A stretch of 60,344 nucleotides of DNA from an uncultured Jannaschia sp. (lineage in GTDB: Bacteria > Pseudomonadota > Alphaproteobacteria > Rhodobacterales > Rhodobacteraceae), in contig NZ_CANLTQ010000016.1 in NCBI RefSeq assembly GCF_947494025.1, positions 1 to 60,344 on the forward strand, read 5' to 3'. This document shows positions 5,787-15,587 of this stretch, one piece after another (position 1 is the first letter of the stretch; each line of letters starts with the position of its first letter). A program made the position numbers and the translations under genes. The notes beneath the pieces are model-generated. The model saw only the letters and a program-made list of their open reading frames with translations, ran no database searches and was not told where the DNA came from.

Positions 5787-6374
5787 TCACCACAGCCCGT
5801 CGAACCGTGTCGCCGCCGTGCGCGTGTAATGCGCGGTGTGACGCGGGTCGCGGTGCCCGAGCCAGTCCTGGATGAGCCGAAGGTCGTGCTTCCTGTTCGC
5901 CAGTGCAAAGCCGCAGGAATGGCGCAGCATATGGGGATGGACGTGTCCGAGACCGGCGCGCTCGCCGGCAGCCTTGATGACGTAGTTCACCGCCTGCCGG
6001 GTGAGCGGCTGGCGACGCTCGGAGACGAAGAGCCAGGGCAGGTCGTCGTCGCGTCGCGCAAGCCATCGCTTGATGGCGCGGAGTTCGTCGCCGGCAACGG
6101 GGTGCTCGACGCTGAGCCCCTTCTTGAGCCGCGCGACCCAGAGCCGGGACTGCAGGAGATCGACGTGCTCCCGGCGCAGGGCGACGGCCTCGGAGACGCG
6201 AAGCCCGTGGCGGAACATCATCAGGAGTAGGAGATGATCGCGGACGCCGTGCCGGCCCTTCTTGGCAGCCTGGAGGAGCCGATCGACCTGCGGCTGTCCA
6301 AGGTAGTCCCGGCCGCGCTCGTGGGCGTCCGCGGCGTTGCCGTCGGCACTCTTGACACTTCGCCGGTTGGTCAT
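5787..6374 (-). CDS. Small tyrosine recombinase (FimB/FimE size class)
   Basis: A 195-residue phage-type integrase consisting almost only of the catalytic domain. All conserved residues are visible: Arg in FRHGLRVSEA (59), Lys in ARLKKG (84/85), HxxR in HPHMLRHS (148/151), His in WLGHRDPRHT (174) and nucleophilic Tyr in AHYTRTA (183). The short length without an N-terminal core-binding domain is like FimB/FimE invertases and some small island integrases. No invertible segment flanked by obvious inverted repeats was found beside it, so whether it inverts, excises or is a passenger is open. It probably has its own promoter in the 6375-6500 gap. Confidence 0.88.
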   Translation of the reverse strand: MTNRRSVKSADGNAADAHERGRDYLGQPQVDRLLQAAKKGRHGVRDHLLLLMMFRHGLRVSEAVALRREHVDLLQSRLWVARLKKGLSVEHPVAGDELRAIKRWLARRDDDLPWLFVSERRQPLTRQAVNYVIKAAGERAGLGHVHPHMLRHSCGFALANRKHDLRLIQDWLGHRDPRHTAHYTRTAATRFDGLW

Positions 6375-6502: not shown

Positions 6503-7003
6503 TTACTGCTTCGCGGGCTCCGTCAGGTCCGTTTGGTTTACCGTCGAGAGCGGCCTGATCGCCATGGCCGCCGCTATCAGATCGTCGTCACTGTCAGATA
6601 TATTCAGATCACGCCGCGCCTCGGGATCGGTCGTGGCATGAACACCGTGCAAAGCAAGGACCAGGAATTGCGCACCGCTCATCATCGGCACGTCATTGCG
6701 TCGCGCAGCCGCGATCTTCTTCTCTCCGGGCTCCGCGCCGACGACGAGGATTGCGGTGCTCTTCGCCATACCGCTCATCACCCGATAGGCGCCGGTCATC
6801 TCGGCTGCGTCCTTCAGGACGCTTTTCTGCGATGGAGTGAAGCCGGTGAGCGTGATCCGTGTGCGGGTATCTTCGGGCTTCTTTCGCGCGGCACCGAACG
6901 CATAGACATGATCCCACGCCTCTGCATCGCTCATGCCGTCGATCTCTTCTGCCGACAGATCGGACTTCGATCGAAGGATCTTCGAGACACGTTCCGATGG
7001 CAT
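6503..7003 (-). CDS. Stand-alone BRCT-like domain protein
   Basis: A 166-residue soluble protein. The middle (about residues 48-120) follows the BRCT pattern of bacterial NAD-dependent ligases: a first strand ITLTGFTPSQK, a helix, then Gly-Ala (MTGAYRV), a Ser/Lys/Thr stretch leading to ILVVGAEPGEKKIAAARRND, and VPMMSGAQFLVLAL. In LigA this fold binds DNA ends or phosphopeptides. Here it stands alone, flanked by a charged N-terminus and a tail of about 45 residues. It sits between a recombinase and the patatin/E2-E1-JAB locus, so it may belong to the mobile island, but its partner is unknown. Confidence 0.6.
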   Translation of the reverse strand: MPSERVSKILRSKSDLSAEEIDGMSDAEAWDHVYAFGAARKKPEDTRTRITLTGFTPSQKSVLKDAAEMTGAYRVMSGMAKSTAILVVGAEPGEKKIAAARRNDVPMMSGAQFLVLALHGVHATTDPEARRDLNISDSDDDLIAAAMAIRPLSTVNQTDLTEPAKQ

Positions 7004-7470: not shown

Positions 7471-8679
7471 CTATGCGAGCCCATCGTCCGCGGACTGGAT
7501 CGATGCACGGGGTGCGACCAGTTCGGGCAGGTATTGCGCGATCAGGGCTCGCGTCTGCTGCTCGCCCCGAAGGACGAGACGATCGATCCACGGTCCGGGC
7601 ATGGCCGAGAAATCCGTTGGGTAATCCTGCACGTCGCCTCGTGGCACGAGGTCCTGCGGCGAACAACTTAGCTGGGCGTCGTTCTGGTCGAGGAACGGCA
7701 TGGCGAACCCGCGGATCGCGCCCGCGTCACGCAGTTCATGAAGCCGCTTCACCGATGAGTTCTCGGCCCGGCGCGCGGTGCAATCATACGATGCGCTCAC
7801 CCGCCCGTACGGCCCGAACCCCGGGTCTTGCCGGGTAAGGCCGTAGCCGGCCCTACAGGCAATGATAGTATCGACCTTCGGGAACGGGAGGCTGATCTTC
7901 GGATCGCGGCCTGGCCAGAACGGTCCCAATCCGAGGTTGTCGTAGACCCCGCCATCCGTCAGCACGACCCGCTCTGGTGTGATTACCCCACGGTGCTCGA
8001 ACTTCGCATGGAGATCCAAGGGCGAGAGCCATAGCGGATACGCTGCCGAAGCCGCCACGGCGTATCCAAGCGTAGGATCGTTCGTAGCAAGGTGCCCGAA
8101 CCGGTAGCATCCGCTATGCGCCTTCGAGAAACGGAACGCCGACCGCGTTCGAAGCTCGGTTGCGTTCACGACCAGCGGCGGACGCCCGTCGGGAAGGTCC
8201 GATATTCGCAGGCCGTCGAACAGGTCGTCTTCGAAGACGGCCTGCAGGAGTGTGGTCATACTGATGGACTTTGGAAGCGGCTCGCGCCGCCGTCGCAGAT
8301 GAGCGTGCGATGGGTCGATGAACATGCGGTCCAAGGCCCCAAAGGTGGCTGCCGCGACCACGCGGGCGATCTGTTGGCCCGCCCGGCTCGTGCCCGTACC
8401 GAGAAGGTGCCAACCTAGCGAGGTGGACAGGGCCTTGCTGAGCGCCGGTCGGAGGAAGCCCCGCGCTAGGTGATGCCTCACGCGGTTCTCGAACGCGGCG
8501 AACGGCTCAACGCGGGCCGCGTAGAGGCCGCCGATGACGCTTCCGCCCGACACCGTCGAGATCATCTCCACCCTGGCAAGAATATCCATCTCGTGCAGCG
8601 CGCGCAGGCAGCCCAGATGGAACGCCAGCGCGCGGACGCCGCCACCTGACAGGCTGAGCCCGATCCGGGGGGCGGACAT
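7471..8679 (-). CDS. Patatin-like phospholipase, probable effector
   Basis: A 402-residue patatin-fold acyl hydrolase, third gene of the MBL / E2-E1-JAB / patatin operon. The oxyanion loop is GLSLSGGGVRALAFH (residues 7-21), the nucleophile Ser47 is in STVSGGSVIGG, and the dyad Asp242 is in LTDGGVYDN; all are intact, so an active lipase is predicted. No signal peptide, so it should attack the cytoplasmic face of the membrane. Patatin proteins such as CapV are membrane-degrading effectors of CBASS; no cyclic-nucleotide sensor domain could be recognised here. ATG 8679 shares its A with the upstream stop (TGATG), so translation is coupled; the longer frame to 8871 is antisense to nothing real and was rejected. 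Ends in TAG; C-terminus is DDGLA. Confidence 0.88.
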   Translation of the reverse strand: MSAPRIGLSLSGGGVRALAFHLGCLRALHEMDILARVEMISTVSGGSVIGGLYAARVEPFAAFENRVRHHLARGFLRPALSKALSTSLGWHLLGTGTSRAGQQIARVVAAATFGALDRMFIDPSHAHLRRRREPLPKSISMTTLLQAVFEDDLFDGLRISDLPDGRPPLVVNATELRTRSAFRFSKAHSGCYRFGHLATNDPTLGYAVAASAAYPLWLSPLDLHAKFEHRGVITPERVVLTDGGVYDNLGLGPFWPGRDPKISLPFPKVDTIIACRAGYGLTRQDPGFGPYGRVSASYDCTARRAENSSVKRLHELRDAGAIRGFAMPFLDQNDAQLSCSPQDLVPRGDVQDYPTDFSAMPGPWIDRLVLRGEQQTRALIAQYLPELVAPRASIQSADDGLA

Positions 8680-10958
8680 CAGGCGGTCTTCCCGTGAGGC
8701 AGCGGGATCGTGGCCGTATGAGGTCCGAAAGCGATCGTGATGCTGTATCCGCCGATGATGGTCATCAGTCCGGGTAGTTCCTCCATGCCGAGCGTGGCGG
8801 AGAGCCAATCGAGCTGCTCCAGATCGACCGCGCTTGGGCGCGTGCCGCTCCCATCCGGATGGCTGTGCCATTCGCCTAGATACCGGACTTGGCTCATCGT
8901 CCTATCCCGTACGCGATCGAGATGCGCCTCGACGCCGTCGGTACCGCGGACGAACCCTGCAGGGGCGTGCACGCTATCGGCGGGCGGCGACGCGGCGTGA
9001 AGGACGTGCAGCCGCTTGGCAGGGATGTCGACCATGCCAGTGAGCACGCCGCCCGTCTCGTCGGGAAGAGCGCTTGCGCGCAGGGCCACGATCCGTTTGA
9101 GTACGATCGCGTCAAGCGACACTGTCCAGCCACCGATTTCGACTTCCGTCGGCACCGTCGGCACGTATGCGTGGCAATCGACTGCCCCGCCGATCGACAT
9201 CGACCAGACCCGAATGTCTCCGACCTCGCGTTCAGCGGCCTGCGCGATACCGATCGCGGCTGACCCGCTGAGAACCGCCACACGCGACTGCGGGAACACA
9301 CTGGTGACCGCCCCACAGCCACCGGAATACGCGATCCGGTCGGACTCGGTCCCGTAATGGCCCTCCAAGGACGCAGTCCTCGCAACATTCTGTAAAAACT
9401 GAGCCTCAAGATCCCGCAAGGTAACGCTGCGATCCGCGGGCTCGGCCAGAACCACCACGGCCGTGCCCGCCGGGTTAAAAAACGCTGACAGTCGGCGCGC
9501 GGAGCTCGCGTGGTCGCTGAGATAGCGCGCGGCCGCCAGCGATGCCGTCGCATCGATGATCAGGTCGGCCTCGGCCAAGACTGCATCGATCGCGTCGTGA
9601 CCCTCATCAGAACTCGTGACATCGTAAGGTATGGCCGTTGCCACATCGCACTCGTCGAGGATGTCGGAGAGGTGCTCTGCAAGAACCTCTGCCTTGTTAC
9701 GGAACACAGCCGTATGTCCGGCGACGTGGCGCGCGACGTTGTGCGGGGAGATCACATCGGGGTCGATGATCGTCCAGAGGTATCGCCCCTCTCGGGCAAG
9801 GCACGTCGCTAGGTGCGATCCGATCGCGCCGGCGCCCACGAGCACGACACGTCGCGCGTCCTGGGCAGGTGTGCCCGCAAACCGCGACGCCGCGATTCGA
9901 TCCATCGCCAGGTGCACGTCGCAAGGAAGGAGCCGTGCTCCCGCGAGGACGGATGCCTTCAAGGGCGTGGCACCGATCGCCCGCACGACGTTCACCAGCT
10001 CCGGGTTCTTGGGGTCCGGCTCGCACGCGTGCGCAACACCCAGATCGACGGCGACCTGGCCAAGGGAACGGTCGGCAAGGAAAGCGATAGTCTGGACGTT
10101 CGTCGCTCCGCCGCTGGTGATGGACATCTGAACGAGGACGAGCAGACCACCATCAACGAGCGGTTTTCGGTACAGCGGGGACGTGTCGAGCGCAGCGAGG
10201 AAAGCCTCCGCCAGCAAGGCGGGGAGATCGACGCCGCGCTCCGCAAGGAAGTCCGCAAGGTCGGAGAGCGTACCGGGCGCGAACCGAAGGCGCGTCATCG
10301 CTTCGGGTGGCACTGTCACCAAGAGCGGGCTGAACATTCCGCCTAGCACTCCGCCTTCGCGGACGTCCTCGACGCCGATGATCTCGAGATCGCCGCCGTC
10401 GCCCTTCGTGAGGCCGATCAACGGTTCGCGGTCTTTCCGATCGAGAAGCCTGCGCGGGACGAGAATGCGTACGCCGCTGGTGATCAGGTTTGGATCGATC
10501 GGTTGCGCGGTGTCGTGAAGCTCGCCCTCTGCAGCCCGTCGGAACCAGTTCAGGATATAGCCGAGGAGGTCCGGCGGCCCCCATGTCAGGCGCGCTTCGC
10601 TCCAAGCGCGCTCGTCGATGCAGATCGCGGGCGGTCGATCAGGCAGCGAAAGATGCTGATGGCCCGTAACGGGAAAGTTCGCCCGAAGAGGGCGGACCAT
10701 CGGCATACCCAATGCATCGTGGGGGAACTCGATGCCGATCCGTTCTACGGTCTCGATCTCGACCGCACTGTTCTGCGGGCGACCGGTCTGGAGATCGAAG
10801 ACAGCGAGCGAGGAATGCTCGCCCTCCCGCGTCTCTACCACCCTACCGACACCTTCCCCGTAGCGTTCGAGGTAGCGGACGAAGGCGCAAGCCTCCGTCG
10901 AACGGAGCTCCGCCGCCGCCACGCCGCGCGCGAACCCCGTAAGCCAAGCTTCGATCAT
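8679..10958 (-). CDS. E2-E1-JAB fusion: ubiquitin-type conjugation/deconjugation protein
   Basis: A 759-residue protein combining three ubiquitin-pathway modules. Residues 1-170 look like a divergent E2/UBC domain: HQHLSLP, then PPAICIDERAW with candidate catalytic Cys113, and LNWFRRAAEGELH after it. Residues 370-600 are a ThiF/E1 adenylation domain: VVLVGAGAIGSHLATCL (375-380), IIDPDVISPHNVARH, and a candidate catalytic Cys548 in YSGGCGAV. Residues 620-759 form a JAB/MPN metalloprotease with Glu634 (DETGGVL) and GEWHSHPDGSGTRPSAVDL (His698, His700, Ser709, Asp712), a complete JAMM motif. Residues 170-370 match no family I recognise. Type II CBASS has E1-E2 (Cap2) and JAB (Cap3) as separate proteins; here all are one chain. 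It starts 3 bases after the MBL stop and overlaps the patatin start. Confidence 0.9.
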   Translation of the reverse strand: MIEAWLTGFARGVAAAELRSTEACAFVRYLERYGEGVGRVVETREGEHSSLAVFDLQTGRPQNSAVEIETVERIGIEFPHDALGMPMVRPLRANFPVTGHQHLSLPDRPPAICIDERAWSEARLTWGPPDLLGYILNWFRRAAEGELHDTAQPIDPNLITSGVRILVPRRLLDRKDREPLIGLTKGDGGDLEIIGVEDVREGGVLGGMFSPLLVTVPPEAMTRLRFAPGTLSDLADFLAERGVDLPALLAEAFLAALDTSPLYRKPLVDGGLLVLVQMSITSGGATNVQTIAFLADRSLGQVAVDLGVAHACEPDPKNPELVNVVRAIGATPLKASVLAGARLLPCDVHLAMDRIAASRFAGTPAQDARRVVLVGAGAIGSHLATCLAREGRYLWTIIDPDVISPHNVARHVAGHTAVFRNKAEVLAEHLSDILDECDVATAIPYDVTSSDEGHDAIDAVLAEADLIIDATASLAAARYLSDHASSARRLSAFFNPAGTAVVVLAEPADRSVTLRDLEAQFLQNVARTASLEGHYGTESDRIAYSGGCGAVTSVFPQSRVAVLSGSAAIGIAQAAEREVGDIRVWSMSIGGAVDCHAYVPTVPTEVEIGGWTVSLDAIVLKRIVALRASALPDETGGVLTGMVDIPAKRLHVLHAASPPADSVHAPAGFVRGTDGVEAHLDRVRDRTMSQVRYLGEWHSHPDGSGTRPSAVDLEQLDWLSATLGMEELPGLMTIIGGYSITIAFGPHTATIPLPHGKTA

Positions 10959-10961
10959 CCC

Positions 10962-12092
10962 TCAGCCTGCTCGCGGATTGGAGCGGGCCGTCCTGGCGGC
11001 CGCGTCGGGAGCCGCGAGCGCAGGTGCGACGCCGAGAGCTGTGAACTTGTAGGCGAAAGGCTTCGGGCGGGCGACGCTCGGGTCTTCCATGGTGACTCGG
11101 AACGAGACGCCCCGCCCTTGGCTGCGGTGGTAGTTCGCCGCCTGCCTGTGGGGCGGTTGCACGTCCCTATCCTCCTTTGTGCCCGCTTCTGGGATAGGCT
11201 TGGACGTCGACACAATCACCGCATTGTCCGCGCGATAGTTCTCGAACAGGCGCTTCGTCTTGGATGTCGGCACGGTTGCCTTGTCGCCCGCGCCGCGCTC
11301 TGGACCGATAGAAAGATAAGAGCAGTGGTGGGGTAGCTTGAGGAGGTCCCATTCGAGGCGGTGCGCGTTGTTGTTGGCCTCGGAGATGCCGACGATATCG
11401 CCAAGCGCCTCGTGCGTGACGTCTGACGCGAGCAACACCCGCGAGTCGCGTGCCCCTTCCCGGAACACTGCCTGCAGCACGATGCTGTTCGCGTTGCGGT
11501 CGATATAGCTGCCGTCAGTCTGCTTGGAAGCAAAGGGGCTATGGACAAAAAATTCGCAGCCCTCGGCTTCATCGAGGCTGAACCCCGGAACGCAGGTACC
11601 CGCATCAACGAAGAGGTGCCGCTTGCCGTCGATGTTGATCCCCCGGCCCAAGAGGTGGGGCCGCAGGGGGTCGGGCCGGGAGAAGATACGCACGCCGCGT
11701 CCCTGACGGAGGCGGTGCATGGCCTCGCGCTGCACCAGCGCCGCGTCATCCTTCAGACCGGTCTCGAGGATCGCGGCCGCTGGCACCCAGAGTTCGTCGA
11801 CCCCGATGCGATTCTCACCAGGGTAGCTGGCGCGATGATCAAGCCGGAACGTGTCACCGATTCCGTGGCAATGGTCGTCGTCGATATGGGTGATGCAGAG
11901 CACGGCCACACGGCCCTGCCCCGCGCGGCGGAGCGCAGAGCGTAGTTCGGCATCGAGGTCGCAGCGCCGATCCGTGTTGTCCTCGGGGTTCCGCACGTCT
12001 GCAAAGTCGAACACCGCAAGACGAGCATCTGCGAGCTGGAAGACTGCGCAGTCGGCGTTGCCGAGCGGGTGGAAGGTGATGGTTGCGGGCAT
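10962..12092 (-). CDS. Metallo-beta-lactamase-fold hydrolase (ComEC C-domain-like)
   Basis: A 376-residue MBL-fold protein, first gene of the operon. The metal motif is ITHIDDDHCHG (His69, Asp71, Asp73, His74), the variant seen in ComEC/Rec2-type and related nucleases. Further expected elements are present: VLLASDVTHEAL with an Asp, and LLKLPHHCSYLS with a His pair. The C-terminus is a flexible Ala/Pro/Arg tail ending SNPRAG. The substrate is unknown; nucleic acid, cyclic nucleotide or a conjugate are possible. GGAGG sits seven bases before ATG 12092. Transcription starts in the 185-base gap shared with the divergent XRE gene. MBL genes beside ubiquitin-type operons have been noted in comparative genomics, but their role is not established. 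Confidence 0.85.
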   Translation of the reverse strand: MPATITFHPLGNADCAVFQLADARLAVFDFADVRNPEDNTDRRCDLDAELRSALRRAGQGRVAVLCITHIDDDHCHGIGDTFRLDHRASYPGENRIGVDELWVPAAAILETGLKDDAALVQREAMHRLRQGRGVRIFSRPDPLRPHLLGRGINIDGKRHLFVDAGTCVPGFSLDEAEGCEFFVHSPFASKQTDGSYIDRNANSIVLQAVFREGARDSRVLLASDVTHEALGDIVGISEANNNAHRLEWDLLKLPHHCSYLSIGPERGAGDKATVPTSKTKRLFENYRADNAVIVSTSKPIPEAGTKEDRDVQPPHRQAANYHRSQGRGVSFRVTMEDPSVARPKPFAYKFTALGVAPALAAPDAAARTARSNPRAG

Positions 12093-12277
12093 GAAGCCTC
12101 CGAATCGCGAAGTCGATGTCGACCATCAGCTTGGAGGCCTCAGTGGTTTTAGTCAATCAGACAAACATTGGTATATTGACAGCATGGGTGTCATTTATCC
12201 GCTACTGTCCGCTGGGTCTAACTTTGACGTCGTTTGTCCCGTTGACACGGAACTCCTCTTGACAGAACAATCGCGCC
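12093..12277. promoter_or_regulatory. Divergent promoter/operator region of the E2-E1-JAB locus and XRE-ImmA pair
   Basis: This 185-base gap separates the two operons and is richer in A/T than its neighbours. It contains TTGACA three times (12176, 12242, 12259), an imperfect palindrome TTGACA-gcatggg-TGTCA (12176-12193), GACAAAC at 12160 matched by inverted GTTTGTC at 12232, and TGTCccgttGACA around 12236. These repeated TTGACA/TGTCA half-sites are good candidates for XRE repressor sites covering both promoters. No -10 box could be assigned with confidence. Confidence 0.55.
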
Positions 12278-12646
12278 ATGGATTCTGACGCTCTCTACGC
12301 TCAAATCGGCAACAAGATCAGCGCCGCACGACGTGATGCCGGCCTTACGCAGAACGCCGTTGCACGACAGGTCGGTGTATCCCGTGCATCGCTCGCCAAC
12401 ATCGAAGCCGGTCGTCAGCAGGTGTTCGTCCATCACCTTGTGAAGATCGCGCATGCGCTCGAACTTTGTGATATCTCCGCTCTTTTGCACTACGATCTGA
12501 ACGGGCAAGACCATGGCTTGAGAGCCGAAGATGTCCGGTTCTCGGGTGCCGATCTCTCGATGGAAGAAAGAGAGGGTGTGCTGGCTTTCTTGAGCAGAGC
12601 GGCATCGAAGGACCGCCACGGTGACGACGCGCAGCCCGTGCGATGA
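12278..12646 (+). CDS. XRE-family repressor (CapH-like position)
   Basis: A 122-residue regulator with an N-terminal HTH_3 domain: IGNKISAARRDAGLTQNAVA, then VGVSRASLANIEAGRQQVFV, with the Q-x(3)-A...S-x(2)-S...N-x-E-x-G pattern of lambda-Cro-type domains. The C-terminal half is charged and may bind the peptidase or dimerise. Its stop overlaps the start of the ImmA/IrrE gene (ATGA), so the two are made together. In mobile elements and CBASS (CapH/CapP), such a repressor is cleaved by the COG2856 peptidase after DNA damage, releasing the divergent operon. That regulation is inferred here from gene order. Confidence 0.85.
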   Translation: MDSDALYAQIGNKISAARRDAGLTQNAVARQVGVSRASLANIEAGRQQVFVHHLVKIAHALELCDISALLHYDLNGQDHGLRAEDVRFSGADLSMEEREGVLAFLSRAASKDRHGDDAQPVR

Positions 12647-13173
12647 CTTACATCCCGCCAAACAAAATCGAGAGTAGAGCTGCCGCTCTTCTGGAGAAGG
12701 CTTGCATCGAGAAGCCTGCCGTTTCTGTCGAAAAGATCGCAAGCGCGCTTGGCGCGGTGATCGAGTATTCCCGGTTGAACAATGCACTGTCGGGTCTCGT
12801 CTTCCTCGGTGGCGAGAAGCCGATCATCGGAGTTAATGCGGGTGATCCTCCAAATCGGCAACGGTTCACGATCGCCCATGAGATCGGCCACATTGTATTG
12901 CACGCCGCTCAGATTGGACGGGACATTCATGTAGACCGCGGGTTTACAGTTTTGCGTCGCGACTCGAGATCGGCACAGGGTACCGACGCCTTAGAGATCC
13001 AAGCCAATCGGTTCGCCGCAGCGCTTCTAATGCCCAGAGCCTTCCTCGAGCGATCGATCGCGGAAGAAGGCATTGAGATCGACGACGACAAGAGGGCCGT
13101 GCCCAGCCTCGCAGGAACGTATCGCGTCAGCGAGGCGGCAATGCAGATTAGGCTCGCTAGCTTATTCGTATGA
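12643..13173 (+). CDS. ImmA/IrrE-family (COG2856) metallopeptidase
   Basis: A 176-residue peptidase with the zinc motif FTIAHEIGHIVLHA (HExxH) near residue 80 and the downstream Glu in DALEIQANRFAAALLMP, the typical ImmA/IrrE pattern. Expected to cleave the XRE repressor encoded immediately upstream. The size and stand-alone form fit CapP and ImmA rather than fused regulators. It is the last gene of its two-gene operon; the next gene (vapC) is convergent. Confidence 0.88.
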   Translation: MTYIPPNKIESRAAALLEKACIEKPAVSVEKIASALGAVIEYSRLNNALSGLVFLGGEKPIIGVNAGDPPNRQRFTIAHEIGHIVLHAAQIGRDIHVDRGFTVLRRDSRSAQGTDALEIQANRFAAALLMPRAFLERSIAEEGIEIDDDKRAVPSLAGTYRVSEAAMQIRLASLFV

Positions 13174-13743: not shown

Positions 13744-13973
13744 TCCCGGGTCAGCGCCATGATCTCGTCGGTCGTCATCTTCGTCGTCGCCCTGCCACGC
13801 AACAGACCGAGCGCGGCCTTCAAAGCCAGGTTCTCCGGCTGATCGGCGTGACGGCGAACGCGGACGTTGCCGGTATCGTCCATGACGAACTCGATCTCGG
13901 TCCCGGGCAGAAACCCGGCCGCTTCGCGGATATGCTGGGGGATCGTCACCTGTCCCTTGCTCGTCATGCGCAT
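13740..13973 (-). CDS. AbrB-type VapB antitoxin
   Basis: A 77-residue antitoxin with an N-terminal swapped-hairpin domain, MRMTSKGQVTIPQHIREAAG, that binds the operator, and a C-terminal segment ending TTDEIMALTRE, which is the usual part that occupies the PIN toxin. It lies 14 bases from a perfect palindrome in its own promoter, consistent with autorepression by the VapBC complex. Confidence 0.88.
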   Translation of the reverse strand: MRMTSKGQVTIPQHIREAAGFLPGTEIEFVMDDTGNVRVRRHADQPENLALKAALGLLRGRATTKMTTDEIMALTRE

Positions 13974-13987
13974 GGTCGTTCCTTTTG

Positions 13988-14008
13988 GTATTACTTATTT
14001 GGTAATAC
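13988..14008. promoter_or_regulatory. Palindromic operator of the AbrB-type vapBC operon
   Basis: GTATTAC (13988-13994) and GTAATAC (14002-14008) form a perfect 7-base inverted repeat with a 7-base AT-rich spacer, directly upstream of vapB. AbrB-type antitoxins bind such sites; the AT-rich core probably includes the -10 region. Confidence 0.75.
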
Positions 14009-14066
14009 TCAAATTCCATCGCGTCAAGTAGAGCCGTATGAAGCCGACAATGACGGGCCCGGAATG

Positions 14067-14681
14067 TCAAAGCTCGGCCATGTCAACCACGGCGGCGTCG
14101 ACCCTCTGCCTGCCAAGCCACTGGATGTCGCGTACGCGGCAGGCGACGCCGACCACGACCGGCGTCCCGTGCCGCCGTCCCATTCGACGCAGGGAGAAGA
14201 CCGACCACCACGCACGAAAGGCCAGGCGCGTCCATGTCCGGTCGTTCCAGCCAAGCAGGATCACGTCGGGCCTCACGGCGGCGGCTAAGCGGGCGATCTG
14301 CCAGGGATACGGGACGATCAGACCGAGCCGGATCCGGCGCTCGCCCTCCAGCCGCTCCAGCAGTTCGACGGGGCCGATGATCACGGCACGGCTGGCCAGA
14401 CCGCCGTTGACCAGCGCTCGCGCCACGTCCGCAGTGAGCCCCGCCTCCTTCACCTCGACATAGGCTTCGAGTTCCGATCGAACGAGGAGCGCCAAGACCG
14501 CGTCGAGGGCCGCGGTTCCCTCCTCCGGTGGATCGTGCGAGACGACGATGGCGCCGTCAGCAGCGCGACGCACATCGAACTCGACCCCCGACACACCAGG
14601 TTCGGCGGCGGCACGGTGGAACGCAGCAAGCGTGTTTTCCCCGGCGCCGGCGGACCATCCACGGTGGGCGATGAGTTTCAT
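14067..14681 (-). CDS. Glycerophosphodiester phosphodiesterase
   Basis: A 204-residue GDPD TIM-barrel enzyme that hydrolyses glycerophosphodiesters to sn-glycerol-3-phosphate and alcohol. The catalytic N-terminus MKLIAHRGWSAGAGENTLAA carries the HR and EN residues, and VEFDVRRAADG plus VVSHDP carry the metal Glu/Asp and second His. ATG 14681 was chosen because GGGAGG precedes it. It has no signal peptide, so it is a cytoplasmic, UgpQ-like form. It is slightly short compared with typical 240-residue members but keeps all catalytic parts. It is a lone housekeeping-type gene in a mobile region. Confidence 0.88.
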   Translation of the reverse strand: MKLIAHRGWSAGAGENTLAAFHRAAAEPGVSGVEFDVRRAADGAIVVSHDPPEEGTAALDAVLALLVRSELEAYVEVKEAGLTADVARALVNGGLASRAVIIGPVELLERLEGERRIRLGLIVPYPWQIARLAAAVRPDVILLGWNDRTWTRLAFRAWWSVFSLRRMGRRHGTPVVVGVACRVRDIQWLGRQRVDAAVVDMAEL

Positions 14682-14814: not shown

Positions 14815-15420
14815 TCAGGTATTCTCAGCCGGTGCGTTCACCTTACCACGATGGTCGCGGATGCACTGCACGGTCTGTCGGCTGGTCTTGAACTGTCGTG
14901 CCAGGGCGGAGATCGCCTCGCCTTTCCGTAGTCCGGCCTCGATCTCGGCCCGCCGCTCCGGGTCGAGGACCGGCGGCCGGCCGAGCCTCTTGCCCTGCGC
15001 CCTCGCCCGGTCGATCCCGGCCTTCGTCCGCTCGATGAGCAACTCCCGCTCGAACTGCGCGACCACGTTCAGGATGTGCGTGGTCATCCGACCTGCGGCG
15101 CTGGTCAGGTCCATATCACCCAGATCGAGGCTCTTTACCCGGATCGACATCTCGCCCAGCCGCGCGATCGTCGCCATGACGTCCATCGCGTTGCGCCCCA
15201 AGCGGTCCATCTTCGTGACCACCAGCGTGTCACCGGGCTCGAGCCGGTCGACGAGCCGTACAAAGCCCGGACGCTTCATCGCCTCGACGCTACCCGAAAC
15301 CGTCTCAACCATGATGCGGTAGTCCTCGATCTCGATCCCGGCCGCCGCGATCTGCCGCTTCTGGGTCTCGGTCGTCTGGCCGGCGGTCGAGACGCGAAGG
15401 TAGGCAAAGGTACGGGACAC
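14815..15420 (-). CDS. Serine recombinase (resolvase/invertase)
   Basis: A 201-residue resolvase. The nucleophile Ser11 is in FAYLRVSTAGQTTETQKRQI, the active-site helper Arg residues are in VVTKMDRLGRNAMDV, and the E-helix FERELLIERTKAGIDRARAQ leads into LGRPPVLD and an HTH (ISALARQFKTSRQTVQCIRD). The start is GTG 15420, preceded by AGGGGA; an ATG at 15468 would add 16 residues ahead of the conserved core. It looks intact, so it may resolve a Tn3-like or plasmid dimer site, though no transposase is adjacent. Confidence 0.9.
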   Translation of the reverse strand: MSRTFAYLRVSTAGQTTETQKRQIAAAGIEIEDYRIMVETVSGSVEAMKRPGFVRLVDRLEPGDTLVVTKMDRLGRNAMDVMATIARLGEMSIRVKSLDLGDMDLTSAAGRMTTHILNVVAQFERELLIERTKAGIDRARAQGKRLGRPPVLDPERRAEIEAGLRKGEAISALARQFKTSRQTVQCIRDHRGKVNAPAENT

Positions 15421-15587
15421 GGCGTCAAAATCCCCTGTTCTTTTCGGACATGACCATAAGTACGACATCCGGCGGTTTAGAACAGTGTCCTCAGCGGGTG
15501 CTCTAAATTGTTCGATTTCGAACACCTCACTTGGCGGACTTGCCGATGAATATTGGATGAGCTTGTCAGAAACGGTCACACAGCTTA

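Follow-up and report, generated by a model that had tools for sequence, protein, structure and literature searches.

What does a ubiquitin-type conjugation machine attach to its targets when its operon codes for neither a recognizable ubiquitin-like protein nor a cGAS/DncV-like nucleotidyltransferase (CD-NTase)? This question is posed by a three-gene operon in a 60,344-nucleotide stretch of DNA from an uncultured Jannaschia sp. (contig NZ_CANLTQ010000016.1; hereafter the window), which codes for a metallo-beta-lactamase (MBL)-fold protein, a single-chain fusion of E2-like, E1 and JAB modules, and a patatin-like phospholipase. An earlier sequence-only reading had proposed that these genes constitute a hitherto undescribed kind of ubiquitin-type defence operon with no visible ubiquitin-like protein. 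That interpretation is partly supported: the operon is real, the patatin partnership recurs, and Pfam indeed finds no ubiquitin-like domain in the three genes; the family had, however, already been named, and the reading missed the C-terminus of the MBL protein. As laid out below, comparative evidence indicates that the ComEC-like MBL enzyme is itself probably the conjugated protein, with its C-terminus probably filling the role of the "absent" ubiquitin-like protein, which would make it the second such case outside the beta-grasp fold.

The three genes are open frames on the minus strand, running from position 12092 to 7471, and apparently form one transcription unit. The gap between the MBL and fusion genes is just 3 nt, and the fusion stop codon TGA (8681-8679) has one base in common with the patatin ATG (8679-8677), in agreement with the tight coupling originally described. 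Given this shared base, the most probable start of the patatin is position 8679, for a length of 402 aa, rather than the start of its open reading frame (ORF) at 8871 (466 aa). Both core proteins score over the cut-offs of NCBIfam profiles titled "anti-phage 6A-MBL system" (June 2026 release): the MBL protein matches 6A-MBL_enzyme (NF058524) at 343.4 bits (cut-off 220, profile positions 1-346 of 346) and the fusion matches 6A-MBL_cap2_3 (NF058523) at 597.5 bits (cut-off 320, positions 1-665 of 665). The assignment to defence thus agrees with the sequence-only reading, with the anti-phage label resting on the NCBI naming. The MBL protein has no Pfam match even at E 0.1, and its PADLOC matches are to RTasMBL (3.9e-13) and Avs1a (1.0e-4). 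The core pair, an E2-E1-JAB triple protein beside an MBL-fold gene, is the operon type 6a of Iyer et al. 2006, who described the triple-module protein as usually forming a two-gene operon with a specialised metallo-beta-lactamase and termed it uncharacterized (PMC1779556; this and the papers below are cited for the parts of their text that were available). Hence, the core pair is not new, and we infer that type 6a and the NCBIfam 6A-MBL system are one and the same. The window operon differs in having a patatin as its third gene, a word absent from the text of the 2006 paper; further, the available part of that paper gives the MBL protein no role in conjugation. We found no paper on "6A-MBL" in the literature searched, a search mostly outside subscription papers and preprints; nor did we meet a description of the patatin partnership, the exchange of effectors or the MBL as a conjugated protein in that literature, which did not cover some key papers of the field.

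The principal evidence for the MBL protein as the conjugated partner comes from its tail. When the C-termini of these proteins are set side by side, a variable Ala/Ser/Thr-rich stretch is seen to be followed by PRAG. The pattern R[AVLS]G falls in the final 16 residues of 53 of the 59 distinct MBLs adjoining a fusion (one of the 59, from L079, being a 75-residue C-terminal piece; L-numbers denote the related loci found in our scans), with the exact RAG in 50 of them. A proline precedes the motif in 39 of the 53, and the protein stops at the motif glycine in 28, while the rest extend 1 to 8 residues beyond it. The background frequency of the pattern in the same position was 39 in 1,047 other mechanically called ORFs of at least 250 aa (RAG in 14). 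Moreover, none of 29 MBL-profile relatives lacking an adjacent fusion has the motif in its last 16 residues, which rules out a general feature of the MBL family. These controls exclude ORFs shorter than 200 aa or open at the 3' end, copies of the window, L105 (an alternative reading of the L005 MBL), the 157-aa fragment L121, and L115, L116 and L120, which were found to adjoin a fusion. In 44 of 50 single-linkage clusters formed at 80% identity, and in 27 of 32 when the threshold is 60%, every member has the motif, and therefore its frequency is not caused by near-copies; the lower figure at 50% identity (4 of 9) arises because most rows merge into a few clusters, in which a single exception is enough to spoil the whole cluster.

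When 54 tails, including the QAG of L070 (ending PPQAG), are anchored at the motif, the entropies of R, A and G are 0.13, 0.40 and 0.00 bits, respectively, as opposed to 2.2-3.3 bits at positions -20 to -4. All six Arg, four Ala and four Gly codons occur, and the spacing between the motif and the fusion start differs among loci; therefore, selection acts on the protein rather than on a ribosome site, and a Shine-Dalgarno sequence or a by-product of gene overlap can be dismissed as the source of the RAG. In the predicted structure of the window MBL, the predicted local distance difference test score (pLDDT) drops below 50 for three or more consecutive residues only at 362-376. Gly376, the last residue, is invariant in an alignment of 44 MBLs (A1), and the metal-site residues are invariant both there and in a second alignment of 39 (A2). 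Thus, the modeled protein would comprise a folded body and a loose tail whose last residue ranks among its most conserved.

A precedent for such a tail is furnished by type II CBASS, in which Cap2 forms a thioester with the C-terminal glycine of the CD-NTase and then links it to lysines, whereas Cap3 cuts at the CD-NTase C-terminus and frees the conjugate (PMC10097602). Among 1,583 CD-NTases encoded together with full-length Cap2 and Cap3, the terminal position is held by Gly or Ala, a conservation not seen where operons lack Cap2 and Cap3, or the E2 domain (PMC10097602); the C-terminal residue of the CBASS cyclase as the proven donor is also supported by PMC11153139. According to a 2025 review, no system other than that of Cap2 is known to activate a protein outside the beta-grasp fold (PMC12355090). 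Our own set provides an internal control in the form of 20 related loci without an MBL gene: the protein encoded directly before the Cap2-type gene has a terminal Gly in 14 of them, Ala in five and Gly-Tyr in one. All nine of these upstream genes that were scanned match PADLOC oligonucleotide cyclases, and six of seven scanned with Pfam exceed the SMODS cut-off, that of L103 falling under it. The MBL protein occupies this very slot, with the same gene order, the same downstream enzyme (Cap2-type E2-E1 and Cap3-type JAB) and the same kind of terminal residue, the conserved C-terminal Gly/Ala of the cyclase being matched by the RxG of the MBL. It is on account of these shared attributes that we interpret the MBL protein as the conjugated one. 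The difference is that it stands in place of the CD-NTase.

The absence of a CD-NTase, noted in the sequence-only reading, was upheld: the genome has no match to SMODS PF18144 (215 contigs, one family tried; three of 14 control genomes were positive, which shows that the search is able to detect such genes), and no cyclase-like ORF was found in the window. Nor does such a gene normally belong to the operon, as none of the 59 MBL-type loci, flanks included, has an ORF resembling any of nine reference cyclases (the count includes L114 and L118, both with short flanks). Together with the separate clade formed by the MBL-linked fusions, barring L012, this led us to reject the deletion of a CD-NTase in this genome. 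Alternatively, a separate ubiquitin-like protein encoded elsewhere, such as ThiS, MoaD or an unseen small protein, might be conjugated, with the MBL tail retained for another purpose such as docking. ThiS and MoaD are common in bacteria, which lends this proposal some plausibility. We nevertheless regard it as improbable: the Pfam search, which covered the three operon genes, recovered no ubiquitin-like protein; the sister systems use the C-terminus of the upstream gene's product; and a tail ending at or a few residues past a glycine suits the chemistry of E1 and JAB but would be needless for docking. In this regard, the operon also differs from Bil, an antiviral defence system (PMC11354881), and Bub, a putative immune pathway (PMC13373217): both share its E1, E2 and JAB components but encode ubiquitin-like proteins, with none found within the above scope here.

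The nearest solved relative of the fusion is Cap2, and together with the Pfam match of its N-terminal domain (Table 1) this confirms the E2-like nature attributed to that domain. Across 42 aligned fusions, the residues singled out beforehand, namely C113, C548 and the full JAMM set (E634, H698, H700, S709, D712), are invariant, as are E72, H100 and W138 in the E2 domain and G375, G377, G380, D399 and K422 in the E1 domain. In a quick 80-row tree, the fusions with an MBL partner form one clade holding 58 of their 59 rows (SH-aLRT 97); L012, which has a long branch, could not be placed, and a warning of long-branch joins was issued. The partner type changes only twice on this tree as against 18.8 times in shuffles, and therefore the partnership with the MBL is an old and stable one rather than that of a chance neighbor. 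Among the 59 rows labelled MBL, L048 and L065 end before the MBL gene and were labelled by hand; of the 21 labelled CD-NTase, 20 were assigned by the upstream gene and L084 by its clade, a cyclase-like ORF being present within its locus. In L016 and L017, the upstream gene is cut short and matched none of the reference cyclases; for L157 and L158 (a single gene, also L159), the frames of which are broken, the analysis was confined to description. On the CD-NTase side, we also observed Cap2-type proteins, 696-716 aa long and extending into the JAB region, directly downstream of the CD-NTase (L089, L092, L094, L097, L099, L103) in Bacteroidota and one archaeal metagenome-assembled genome (MAG); in L092, a NucC nuclease is found downstream as well.

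All the fusions studied carry the JAB domain in cis, which bears on the direction in which conjugation might act. Rather than activating the MBL enzyme, conjugation might keep it inactive or parked, with infection and JAB cleavage freeing the active form. This would accord with the in cis JAB, with the Bacillus cereus CBASS cyclase, which sits on PspA in the absence of phage and is released upon infection (PMC11153139), and with the MBLs of other defence systems being gated pro-nucleases (PMC12799240). Conversely, Jenson et al. found that conjugation raises cGAMP production in an Escherichia coli CBASS (PMC10097602). We consider parking somewhat unlikely. The gated MBL nucleases of HamM, Avs1a and canu are likewise ComEC-like MBL-fold defence enzymes, but they depend for activation on a trypsin-like or caspase protease, whereas the partner in the window is a conjugation enzyme (PMC12799240); Pfam detected no trypsin-like or caspase domain in the two operon partners of the window MBL, the JAB being a different kind of peptidase.

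The third gene is the variable part of the system. The window patatin is intact, as had been stated, but its nucleophile is more likely S44 than the S47 proposed for it, which we reject: S44-G-G and D242-G-G are invariant in 22 aligned operon patatins, in which S47 is conserved at 90% or more. The window patatin matches PlpD (5fqu) at 2.9e-6 over residues 3-59 and, partially, the PADLOC profile for phospholipase effectors (5.4e-4); CapV phospholipases also serve as effectors in CBASS. Consistent with the suggested partnership, patatins are found in 29 of the 59 MBL-type loci, placed downstream of the fusion except in L058, where the gene is upstream of the MBL. A family of proteins with three to four transmembrane (TM) segments is found in 10 loci and Csx27-like or TM proteins in three, with no recognised effector in 17 (an upper bound, as L080 has just 315 bases downstream). 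The recognised kinds thus comprise a lipase family and predicted membrane proteins. The effector label changes at least 18 times on the fusion tree, as counted with L053 as "none" before its transfer to the TM group. Nine members of the TM family were confirmed by leave-one-out profiles (E 2.3e-57 to 6e-79) and L053 was added afterwards; four members scanned matched nothing over curated cut-offs in Pfam and NCBIfam, with a best PADLOC value of E 0.052. The TM protein in the effector slot of L040 resembles Csx27, an accessory of type VI-B CRISPR (PADLOC 2.5e-12; NCBIfam 38.5 bits, under the cut-off of 65), but follows an MBL and fusion pair. Of the other two Csx27-like members, that of L010 (as L109) matches just the L040 protein (1.9e-8) and that of L152 matches Csx27 weakly (0.0035).

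Several loci deserve separate mention. The 3-4 TM family is marked by the motif "..YTRRARxxPxxLxxLP.." and occupies the effector slot in L039:12241-13011, L043:12150-12926, L107:9463-10209 and L151:6319-7107 (all four on the plus strand), with further relatives in L053, L068, L081 and L130. In L068 (Methylophilus), a patatin (11499-12578) and a 3-4 TM protein (13821-14609) both lie downstream of the fusion. L081 has a partial fusion ORF (209 aa) followed by a 3-4 TM protein (10224-11000), with a cyclase-like ORF in the same locus. A second, shorter MBL (272 aa) without the RAG tail directly follows the Csx27-like gene in L040 (13122-13940), and small MBL-like ORFs resembling it lie near the operons in L046 and L047.

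Since no CD-NTase was found, a signal made by the MBL enzyme, or contact with it, would be the likely trigger of the effector. It might instead be that an MBL nuclease is the sole killer and that the patatin or TM gene serves as a dispensable, separately triggered accessory, a view that fits the 17 loci without a recognised effector, the invariant metal site and the usually two-gene form of the operon in Iyer 2006 (PMC1779556). However, the start of the window patatin overlaps the fusion stop and three kinds of effectors recur in the same slot; accordingly, we see this as a rather unlikely account.

A number of observations weigh against our interpretation. In alignment A2, Gly376 is conserved at just 90% or more and R374 is not listed. 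Anchoring the tails on the motif exaggerates the conservation of R, A and G, whose entropy values are partly given by construction. Two of the unpartnered controls, L128 and one in L046, carry RAG(W) with 17 and 15 residues following the glycine, just beyond the 16-residue span, though we read these as unrelated. A second clade lacks RAG altogether: at the C-terminus, L008, L009, L115, L116 and L155 have HG followed by 0-6 residues, L012, L120 and L156 have VG[FY]G followed by 1-6 residues, and L011 has GGGGYG. As a C-terminal glycine is common by chance (123 of the 1,047 background ORFs), the tails of this clade add little and merely fail to contradict the proposal. L044 is without the motif in its called frame, the neighboring frame over the same DNA reading APRAGA. 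The loci without a recognised effector imply that a membrane effector is not essential everywhere, and no paper testing the anti-phage activity of 6A-MBL was found in the literature searched. Finally, the support for conjugation is comparative; the gene anatomy, catalytic residues, tail conservation, slot equivalence and swapping of effectors are direct observations.

Taking these together, we consider it likely that this is an anti-phage-type operon of the 6A-MBL kind, in which the MBL protein is conjugated via its tail and the patatin acts as the effector. DNA damage or phage attack might first relieve the divergent CapH/CapP-type regulators, going by the literature on such pairs. In the next step, for which the comparative evidence is strong, the E1 domain would adenylate Gly376 at the end of the PRAG tail, and the tail would be handed via C548 to C113 of the E2 domain and on to a target lysine; in species with tails extending past the glycine, the JAB domain would trim them beforehand. 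The MBL enzyme would thereby itself be the "ubiquitin", as is the CD-NTase in type II CBASS, and JAB might also take it off its targets, rendering the switch reversible. Conjugation might alter or position the activity of the ComEC-like MBL, which is probably a nuclease or phosphodiesterase. The weakest link is the last one, wherein the action or product of the MBL enzyme would release a membrane-damaging effector, here the patatin and elsewhere Csx27-like or other TM proteins, such that the infected cell dies or ceases growth. With good confidence, we propose the more general statement that an MBL-fold hydrolase, neither a beta-grasp protein nor a nucleotide cyclase, is activated via its C-terminal glycine and attached to targets, the same E1-E2-JAB machine tagging with whichever defence enzyme occupies the upstream slot, and that a swappable membrane effector is fired without a CD-NTase. 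If true, this second case would point to a general principle, namely an E1-E2-JAB device that conjugates an enzyme, with the enzyme being exchangeable. It would also supply a donor residue, Gly376, for an operon type to which the available part of the 2006 paper assigns no substrate.

The phyletic spread of the operon is wide but patchy. A scan of genome contigs yielded 70 related loci from 94 candidate stretches, with a matching ORF of more than 650 aa in 46 of them (including L084, of the CD-NTase type). Going by record titles, the hosts include Alpha- and Gammaproteobacteria, Planctomycetes, Gemmatimonadetes, Bacteroidetes, a cyanobacterium and Chloroflexi-type MAGs; the genes are conserved together in several phyla. 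Within the family of the window organism, nine of 295 genomes have a fusion over the NCBI cut-off. At E 1e-30, matches are found in 245 of 72,556 plasmid records, and a scan of viral contigs recovered no relative of the fusion. DNA resembling the two-gene version from Klebsiella was recovered from 31 of 5,426 E. coli genomes, 29 of which hold 80% or more of it, providing a testable relative; in E. coli VR50 (NZ_CP011136.1, H44), the match is split in two, and an IS3-family transposase is annotated inside the stretch that it covers. The closest named relative, from Jannaschia rubra, has a fusion 69% identical to that of the window and shares all three genes and the CapH/CapP pair with it.

In the window, this pair is divergently oriented and separated from the operon by 185 bases, and a CapH homologue is found at the equivalent position in L034 (3.8e-47). 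Regulators of the CapH/CapP or WYL type lie divergently within 2.5 kb in at least 18 of the 53 loci with at least 1.5 kb of upstream DNA; near-identical Pseudomonas rows contribute to this count, as do some weak hits (the weakest at 3.5e-5), and L149, with its annotated helix-turn-helix (HTH) and ImmA genes, is not captured by it. CapW (WYL) and CapH with CapP exert DNA-damage-responsive control over adjacent immune operons (PMC13373217). These patterns bear on whether the operon modifies proteins in a housekeeping or stress pathway instead of functioning in defence. While the absence of any phage assay from the literature searched and its description as uncharacterized in Iyer 2006 (PMC1779556) leave room for such a role, the patchy distribution, the plasmid records, the neighboring regulators and the NCBIfam name all speak against it, making it very improbable.

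Table 1. Features of the operon and its divergent regulator pair in the window
Feature	Position	Strand	Remarks
ComEC-like MBL-fold protein	10962..12092	-	376 aa; NCBIfam 6A-MBL_enzyme; proposed enzyme and conjugated donor
MBL C-terminal P-R-A-G, residues 373-376	10965..10976	-	end of flexible tail; Gly376 is the proposed donor
E2-E1-JAB fusion, Cap2-Cap3-like	8679..10958	-	759 aa; NCBIfam 6A-MBL_cap2_3
E2-like domain, residues 28-161; Cys113 at 10622-10620	10476..10877	-	Prok-E2_A PF14457 4.7e-16
E1 adenylation core, residues 369-486, GAGAIG	9501..9854	-	ThiF PF00899 8.7e-19
Putative catalytic Cys548, downstream of E1 core	9317-9315	-	
JAB/JAMM peptidase domain, residues 619-717	8808..9104	-	Prok-JAB PF14464 8.5e-11; 9ild "Peptidase" 4.1e-6
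Patatin-like phospholipase	7471..8679	-	402 aa; PF01734 1.9e-17; Ser44 8550-8548, Asp242 7956-7954; proposed membrane-damaging effector
CapH-like HTH repressor, divergent	12278..12646	+	PADLOC capH 1.3e-8; HTH_31 2.2e-10
CapP-like M78/IrrE peptidase, divergent	12643..13173	+	PADLOC capP 5.3e-30; PF06114 4.8e-23

The Prok-E2_A, ThiF, Prok-JAB and Patatin matches in Table 1 are all over the curated Pfam cut-offs. The operon region is flanked by a phage-type integrase (5787-6374, minus strand, PF00589) and a serine resolvase (14815-15579, minus strand, PF00239), which suggests a mobile setting. Just 3' of the patatin lies a 166-aa ORF (6503-7003, minus strand) with a weak likeness to BRCT (Pfam 0.019, below the cut-off; PADLOC PDC-S48 3.5e-5). 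On the opposite side of the operon, the Ruegeria plasmid locus L149 has a DUF2188 gene of 222 bases including the stop (2575-2796) between the regulators and the MBL gene, where the window has its 185-base gap.

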